A stretch of 64,000 bases of DNA from Halapricum desulfuricans (GTDB taxonomy: Archaea > Halobacteriota > Halobacteria > Halobacteriales > Haloarculaceae). The stretch covers positions 310,001 to 374,000 of the forward strand of contig NZ_CP064788.1 of the NCBI RefSeq assembly GCF_017094525.1. The letters run 5' to 3'. Below are positions 18,359 through 29,305 of this stretch, one piece after another. The stretch's first letter is position 1. Each line of letters begins with the position of its first letter. The position numbers were made by a program, and so were the translations under genes. The notes under the pieces are model-generated. The model saw only the letters and a program-made list of their open reading frames with translations, ran no database searches and was not told the DNA's origin.

Positions 18359-18754
18359 TAGTTGTAGCCGGGTGATCCCCGCTCATTGTTATGCCGAGAC
18401 TACGGTACTGTGGTGTGTTCTGGCACCGTTTACATCACCCACAACCTCGAGCAATACTGTCACAGCTCGGGACAGTCCATCAGGATTGATAGTCACTGTT
18501 TTATAGGCTGAGCAGGCCGAGTGCCTCGGGGTCGTACGGAAATCGGTAGATTTCCGTGATGAGCGTTGGACAAAGTCCAACGAACCTGCGAGCGGGCTGA
18601 ACCCGCGAGCAGATGACGAGAGACGAAGTCTCTCGAACCACTTGACCCCGAGGCGGTTCACGCACGACGGGTCACGCTCGATATCCATTACTATCCGAAT
18701 CCCACCGATTAGGCAGGACAATACTATGCCCTGAAGAACTGATAACTATAGACG
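18359..18754. other. Intergenic region with multi-hairpin element
   Basis: These 396 bp lie between the divergent flippase and GT61 genes. Besides the structured element at 18523-18654 there is AT-rich sequence around 18480-18510 and 18720-18750 that could hold promoters. No reading frame is convincing. Confidence 0.5.
18523..18654. ncRNA. Multi-branched hairpin element (candidate structured RNA or IS relic)
   Basis: A perfect 11-bp outer stem (GCCTCGGGGTC / GACCCCGAGGC) encloses four hairpins: 18538-18555 (7 bp, loop GGTA), 18565-18581 (7 bp, loop AAA), 18592-18606 (5 bp, loop CTGAA) and 18617-18635 (8 bp, loop GAA). The whole folds as a four-armed junction. It shares the phrase GCGAGCAGAT with the hairpin array at 28836-29147 (GTGAGCAGAT there). 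The strand transcribed, if any, is unknown. Confidence 0.5.
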
Positions 18755-28526: not shown

Positions 28527-29305
28527 CGGAACCTACCCTAGGGATGTACTTAATAATAAACCAGCTATACGTGCGATATCTGCGAGCGGTTTGAACGTTC
28601 ACGCTTCCGCCGAGGCTTCATACAGTGAAAAAGCACGATCAGTCGGCCAGTTCGTATTGATTCCGCATCGGTCGAGCGAAGAGTGCAAGATGCACTCTCT
28701 GAGGGGCCGTAGAAAGATCATTTCCAGACGCCATACATAGACCAATACTGCTACTGCCTGATTCCAGAGGGCAAAATTCTGTTCAACCCCCTTTCACCTA
28801 ATTCGAGGCGGAGACCCCACCCTCAATGAGTCGTTCGAGAAGCGAAGATTCTCGTAATCCCGAAAATCGAAGATTTCTGGTGGGCGAACGAGACGCTCTG
28901 CGTCTCGTCAACGTCGGCAAAACGCGGACGACGGAGGCGCACCCGTAGACGTGCGCTTGAATAGCGAGGGATCGGAGATCCCTCGGACCATGCGAACGGC
29001 GAAGCCGTGAGCAGATCGCGGGATGTTGAACGTGAGTGGGGAGTACGTCCCCCCTGCCTCTGCTGAGGCATAGAACGGGAGTCCACGCGAAAGCCCTCCC
29101 CTCAACGAGCGAGCGGGGCGATTGCCCCCGAGCGAAGTAGGGGAGGGTAGTTTACTCGTGCCTTCACTCTATATTCATCACGACAGCCGGAACCCATCAC
29201 TGATTAAGGGTTTCAACAAGGCCAGAGCTCCCGATTTTCGCGATTACGAGAGGGCGTCACTCGAACGACGCCTTGAGAGAGGGGGGACTTAGCGCCTGCA
29301 ACCAA
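28527..29305. other. Long non-coding region with hairpin arrays
   Basis: This 779-bp stretch contains no convincing gene. A 7-bp hairpin at 28681-28697 (GAGTGCA-AGA-TGCACTC) and the TnpB-type relic at 28801-29150 occupy it. A GGCGTC/GACGCC hairpin at 29253-29272 lies near the end of the small minus-strand gene. Confidence 0.55.
28801..29150 (+). mobile_element. Decayed IS200/IS605-type relic with hairpin array
   Basis: Non-coding remnant whose right part resembles the region after haloarchaeal tnpB genes: GGGGAGTACGT, a GCCTC/GAGGC hairpin, the phrase GAACGGGAGTCCACGCGAAAGCCC, then a long terminal hairpin at 29094-29147 closed by CCCTCCCCT/AGGGGAGGG. Before it lies a run of hairpins at 28836-28854, 28864-28876, 28888-28908, 28937-28956, 28965-28985 and 28996-29008. 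No transposase or TnpB coding part is left. Confidence 0.6.

Follow-up and report, generated by a model that had tools for sequence, protein, structure and literature searches.

Introduction

REPINs and BIMEs are short palindromic repeats that are presumably moved in trans, the REPINs being inverted pairs that make up one long hairpin, and mitochondrial double-hairpin elements are tiny mobile units with two hairpins each. In the haloarchaeon Haloquadratum walsbyi, PATEs, core-deleted IS605-type elements and SMR-A repeats have been described (Dyall-Smith, 2011; PMC3119063). The PATEs are palindrome-associated transposable elements, of which terminal-only versions of about 52 bp exist (PMC3119063). 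The SMR-A repeats (HqIRS42, HqIRS43 and HqIRS55) are about 110 bp long, have inverted ends, cause no duplication and lie in the near-terminal palindromes of IS605-type elements and PATEs; their mobilisation was termed "enigmatic" (PMC3119063). The word "hairpin" is absent from the main text of that report. Our search, limited to the open literature, returned no other account of the modules described below and nothing relevant on their sequences.

The present work concerns a hairpin-rich locus in a 64,000-nucleotide stretch of Halapricum desulfuricans DNA (the window), taken from a haloarchaeal genome of 2.89 Mb in a single contig. We consider it very probable that this locus is a PATE-like, non-autonomous derivative, and that its parent, a haloarchaeal tnpB transposon of the IS605/IS1341 type, had been invaded by double-hairpin DNA modules. 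Like the PATEs, the element consists of fused IS605-type ends without a transposase gene, its core having been lost between repeats; in contrast to them, the recombining repeats would here be two inserted modules, and not the near-terminal palindromes of the element itself. It resembles the IS200/IS605 tnpB elements with omega or sotRNA (PMC12558985) in parent type, right end and tnpB tail, but it has no gene, and its tail is broken by modules.

A core-deleted tnpB element with both ends kept

The initial annotation had pointed to an array of hairpins at 28836-29147, and each of the hairpins it named was found in the sequence:

28836: CGAGAA/TTCTCG
28864: AAATC/GATTT
28888: ACGAGACGC/GCGTCTCGT
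about 28937: GCGCAC/GTGCGC, in native tnpB codons
about 28965: CGAGGGATC/GATCCCTCG
about 28996: ACGGC/GCCGT
about 29038: GGGG/CCCC
about 29056: GCCTC/GAGGC
29094-29147: closed terminal hairpin of 9 bp, CCCTCCCCT/AGGGGAGGG

Folded as DNA, the segment reached -78.2, compared to -57.2 +/- 3.7 in dinucleotide shuffles (z -5.66, better than 100 of 100 shuffles), and as RNA it again surpassed all of 100 shuffles, with a z of -5.15. The limits of the unit had to be redrawn: it spans 28798-29155 and combines the ends of a transposon with tnpB codons and three inserted modules. The transposon's own hairpins are GCGCAC, GGGG/CCCC, GCCTC/GAGGC and the terminal one. The parts of the element and its surroundings are the following (L numbers denote related loci):

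28792-28797, plus strand: TTTCAC, a target- or TAM-like motif beside the left end; TCAC or TTCAC is found at the same place in most relatives
28798-28830, plus strand: IS605/IS1341-type left end, CTAATTCGAGGCGGAGACCCCACCCTCAATGAG, which can be aligned to its counterpart in 10 related elements
28831-28876, minus strand: type-A module, truncated by the core deletion; the full 54 bp are present in L046, L047 and L049
28871-28876, no strand: deletion junction, with about 1.26 kb of core lost and microhomology GATTT (best split on L047)
28871-28913, plus strand: 3' part of a type-C module, the full one being in frame in the parental tnpB; complete in L046, L047, L051, L052 and L057
28914-28962, plus strand: remnant of C-terminal tnpB codons, QNADDGGAPVDVRLN, from translation and alignment with related tnpB
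28963-29016, plus strand: type-B module, complete, 54 bp, AGCGAGGGATC...GAGCAGAT; shared by the window, L046 and L047
29017-29092, plus strand: remnant of the tnpB C-terminal tail and right end, including GGGG/CCCC and GCCTC/GAGGC; about 75-96% identity to right ends from other genera
29093-29155, plus strand: terminal palindrome of the right end and terminal TTTAC; conserved in relatives through GTAGTTTAC, after which the flanks diverge
29229-29290, minus strand: decayed, inverted remnant of a second left end with type-A module; forms inverted repeats with 28815-28869 and has blastn matches to loci carrying type A

A genome of the same genus (G005) contains two full copies of the element in unrelated flanks, with left and right ends about 1.6 kb apart. 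One of these copies (L047) has an open tnpB of 427 aa. In a domain scan that took the presumed GTG start codon as M, this reading frame matched PF07282 (Cas12f1-like_TNB) at 8.5e-23, and PF01385 (OrfB_IS605) at 1.8e-5, which is under the curated cut-off. The window element corresponds to the first ~76 (74-79) and the last ~282 (279-284) bases of the 1,620-bp parent L047, with 341 of 358 positions identical. Because the 358 bp match the start and the end of the parent, the segment at 28798-29155 is a core-deleted, terminal-only IS605/IS1341-type tnpB element that has kept both its ends.

The frame at 28828 on the plus strand is a decayed TnpB C-terminal tail, reading NADDGGAPVDVRLNS, the insert, GMLNVSGEYVPPASAEA, a stop and NGSPRESPPLNERAGRLPPSEVGEG. 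This frame, along with the full tnpB-bearing elements that match both ends of the segment in relatives, supports the proposal of a tail derived from a haloarchaeal TnpB right end, with tnpB missing. The suggestion that the segment is a non-autonomous derivative is supported too. Its 358 bp are fused IS605-like ends and leave no room for a transposase. It had been thought to keep only an RNA-producing part, but the left end is retained as well. This deleted form exists as a single copy. The parent element shows no target duplication; most copies have a fixed (T)TCAC on their left, the right end finishes in ...GTAGTTTAC, and the palindromes are subterminal. Apart from the TCAC or TTCAC on the left, the outer flanks of related elements are unrelated. 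No empty counterpart of the insertion site of the window element was found in the genus, and the site is deduced from the relatives; a short match in L285 does not extend into the right flank. The decayed remnant at 29229-29290 sits just downstream of the element.

Three modules inserted in the parent

The alignment took in ten left and fifteen right ends, which came from several genera. The parent holds three blocks of about 54-57 bp, here called types A, B and C, which are missing at the same place in relatives, and each consists of two hairpins joined by short constant linkers. Type A is a 54-bp block that lies reversed in the left end, type C is a block of about 57 bp placed in frame among the tnpB codons, to which it adds 19, and type B is a 54-bp block that ends tnpB early. 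The type-A site is empty in L048, L050, L052, L053, L055, L056 and L061, and the type-C site, NNCG^TC, in L048, L049, L050, L053-L056, L058, L059 and L061. Type B is absent from all aligned elements other than the window, L046 and L047, and L046 has an additional B in its left end. Type C was located 3' of CG in 7 of the 7 copies found, and its end is (C/T)AACG. Filled sites and their empty counterparts, seen across different elements and species, suggest that the modules were inserted precisely. We also observed a tandem pair of type-C modules at the 3' end, and inside, of another tnpB (L033:1468-1610; ATCAACG^...^CCTGTGG), and a type-B-like unit with an extra hairpin ahead of its GAGCAGA end (L134:231-300), possibly another nesting event.

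Since L046 and L047 have the modules in common but not the flanks, the modules were apparently carried with a moving host transposon; the loaded transposon would have moved after its invasion, with the modules riding along. In the window, the core deletion has cut A and C short and fused them at a shared AAATC/GATTT stem, and B is intact. The parent would first have been invaded by three modules, with A entering the left end, and C and B the 3' portion of tnpB and the right end. The AAATC/GATTT stems common to the left (A) and right (C) modules may then have offered the sites for a deletion of about 1.26 kb, which would have taken most of tnpB and left 358 bp of fused ends. This order of events, together with the palindrome correction proposed below, is in our opinion reasonably probable. 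It suggests that module insertions in a TnpB transposon may also supply the repeats for its core deletion.

A nested module pair at 18.5 kb

A second array in the window contains a module within a module:

18523-18654, no strand: host palindrome, an IS605/PATE-like end, CCTCGGGG^CTTGACCCCGAGG; empty in L086, L088 and L015
18532-18640, plus strand: type-A module with a nested type B (18561-18614)

The bare CCTCGGGG^CTTGACCCCGAGG palindrome is also found without a module in L089, L202 and L249. Within the array, B is inserted in the central linker of A (GTGAT^GACGAG), and A modules without B are common. The phrase GAGCAGAT, which the initial annotation reported as common to the two arrays, is indeed shared because a type-B module is present in both; it constitutes the 3' end of that module. 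Both B and other two-hairpin units occur nested in the linker of A. At L083:1536-1640, a different two-hairpin unit occupies the usual place of B.

Spread and target site of type A

The type-A consensus is TCGTN-CG(hairpin)-TGATSA-CGAGA(hairpin)TCTCG-AACSA. A covariance model detected type A in 216 of the 242 haloarchaeal genomes and in 69 of the 74 genera, including 18 copies in the genome of the window; at most 22 candidates were scored per genome, so that high counts are lower bounds. Comparison with empty sites revealed no target duplication. The flanks were G^C in 116 of 120 distinct copies, with G at -4 in 111 of the 120; some of the loci were fetched by a pattern ending in AACSAC, which imposes the flanking C there but not the left G, and copies fetched by similarity have the flanking C too. 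The IS605/PATE palindrome context (empty site GGGG^CTTGA) accounted for 44 of 106 distinct copies, and the other 62 were outside it. A general insertion of A into palindromes was discarded: it holds for the IS605/PATE context, and at the other 62 sites the flanks pair weakly. Matches to the type-A pattern were restricted to haloarchaeal records. Viral contigs gave none, and a viral origin of the modules was set aside.

The modules are like SMR-A in being short, in lacking a target duplication and in residing in near-terminal IS605/PATE palindromes, and perhaps also in having inverted ends. Type A alone measures 53-63 bp and the A+B composites 108-114 bp, the latter close to the ~110 bp of SMR-A, a comparison that draws on the published description. 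The bare CCTCGGGGCTTGACCCCGAGG units, which are the empty sites here, resemble the ~52-bp terminal-only PATEs. Contrary to SMR-A as described (PMC3119063), the basic unit has two hairpins and 54-62 bp; nesting, variable stems with flipping loops, a G^C target and an occurrence across 89% of the sampled haloarchaeal genomes are likewise absent from that description. An A-like unit was found in Haloquadratum sp. J07HQX50 (L172). The modules look like a class-wide version of the "small mobile repeats". Their anatomy of two hairpins is also that of the mitochondrial double-hairpin elements; the modules reside on archaeal chromosomes and plasmids, and have other sequences and another target. They differ from REPINs in having two separate hairpins with variable tips.

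Probable DNA palindromes rather than a conserved RNA

Selection at the level of RNA would favour G-U pairs on the transcribed sense. In 60 type-A copies, 98.0% of the stem cells were paired, and there were 171 two-sided changes against 48.5 in shuffles. G-U (24) and A-C (19) were equally rare (p 0.54), as counted in hairpins that had been chosen by their linkers and retained if at least 70% of positions pair. The triloops of hairpin 2 occurred in both orientations, with GAA 38 and TTC 37, GGA 27 and TCC 24, the copies being related and the counts thus non-independent; other pairs were less balanced (TTT 14 and AAA 3 in hairpin 2, GGA 30 and TCC 9 in hairpin 1). As there is no excess of G-U and the loops exist in both orientations, the evidence points to DNA-level palindromes and not to a conserved RNA. 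Copying from arm to arm, or inversion of the DNA palindrome, which flips the triloop, is probably how the stems change and yet stay paired.

The initial annotation saw the tail of the array as resembling omega-RNA or right-end sequences. The element could be an RNA-only locus, in which an enlarged omega-RNA scaffold guides TnpB in trans with a guide taken from the flank after 29155: the element keeps its right end and the stretch that holds the omega or sotRNAs of haloarchaeal tnpB (PMC12558985), the RNA fold is strong (z -5.15), and the genome has other tnpB-bearing elements. However, the extra hairpins come for the most part from modules that were inserted separately and whose empty sites are precise. 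These modules occupy the left end, the tnpB codons and the right end alike, a 54-nt insert splits the scaffold region, and the absence of a G-U excess gives no sign of selection on RNA. Rfam searches at gathering and relaxed thresholds returned no match at the locus, the haloarchaeal sotRNA families RF02656 and RF02657 included, and just as little in the sampled tnpB-bearing loci. In view of the separate insertions and the missing G-U excess, we rejected a conserved non-coding RNA as the leading interpretation of the whole array, and we regard the scaffold interpretation as very unlikely. An ordinary decayed gene with chance hairpins deserves even less credence, to the point of being negligible: part of the segment is decayed tnpB coding sequence, but the folds stand far from those of shuffles (z -5.7 and -5.2), type A covaries, and the empty-site alignments, with their precise insertions, rule it out. 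With the hairpins read as DNA palindromes, some caution is advisable in guide-RNA annotation, since a strong array of covarying hairpins in the right end of a tnpB element can turn out to be mobile DNA; mobile DNA and RNA may be told apart by the test of G-U against A-C and by loop inversion.

How the modules may move

The modules may be regarded as parasites of parasites. Their insertion would favour certain short sites, leave no target duplication and often take place in IS605/PATE palindromes or in other modules. They could be minimal IS200/IS605-like elements, with a left and a right hairpin, that move as single-stranded DNA by means of a TnpA/HUH-type transposase acting in trans. This is a serious possibility, if somewhat short of a probable one. 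The two subterminal hairpins and the lack of target duplication are consistent with it, as are the fixed 5' flank (GNNG in type A, NNCG in type C), the constant 3' end of the module itself, the frequent residence in IS605 palindromes and the two TnpA (Y1) genes of the genome. Against this, the hairpins lie about 5 nt or less from the module ends, there is no linked transposase, and movement between strains of one species was not seen. Copying at palindromes that needs no transposase, through template switching in replication or through break repair, as in mitochondrial double-hairpin elements, would account for the insertion within palindromes and the nested hairpins, and the inverted loops and homogenised arms point to an action of template switching on the modules. 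Yet the strict G^C junction (116/120) and the sharp, conserved ends of the unit look like the work of a specific enzyme, and 62 of 106 copies are outside the IS605/PATE palindrome context; we find this route rather doubtful.

We tentatively propose, with a little less assurance than we attach to movement by TnpA itself, a new class-wide mobile DNA of haloarchaea: double-hairpin modules of 54-62 bp and several types that would use short fixed sites, insert into one another to form arrays, have their stems and loops rewritten by palindrome template switching, and move as single strands with the help of IS605-type TnpA. On the present results, the "enigmatic" repeats of one haloarchaeon would become what looks like a defined class-wide family that has a unit and a target site and shows nesting and empty sites.

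Two further settings of type A were observed. In L161, L211, L226, L232 and L252, some of them named Halorubrum, it recurs amid comparable GC-rich sequence (GCTCGCTG^CGCGCTTCAGTCGCTC or close to it), which suggests another host repeat family. In the genome of the window, at about 6.1 kb and about 458 kb (L014:1480-1540 and L016), there are two tnpB elements of another type, nearly identical to each other, with an A module in the right-end palindrome, directly after the tnpB codons.
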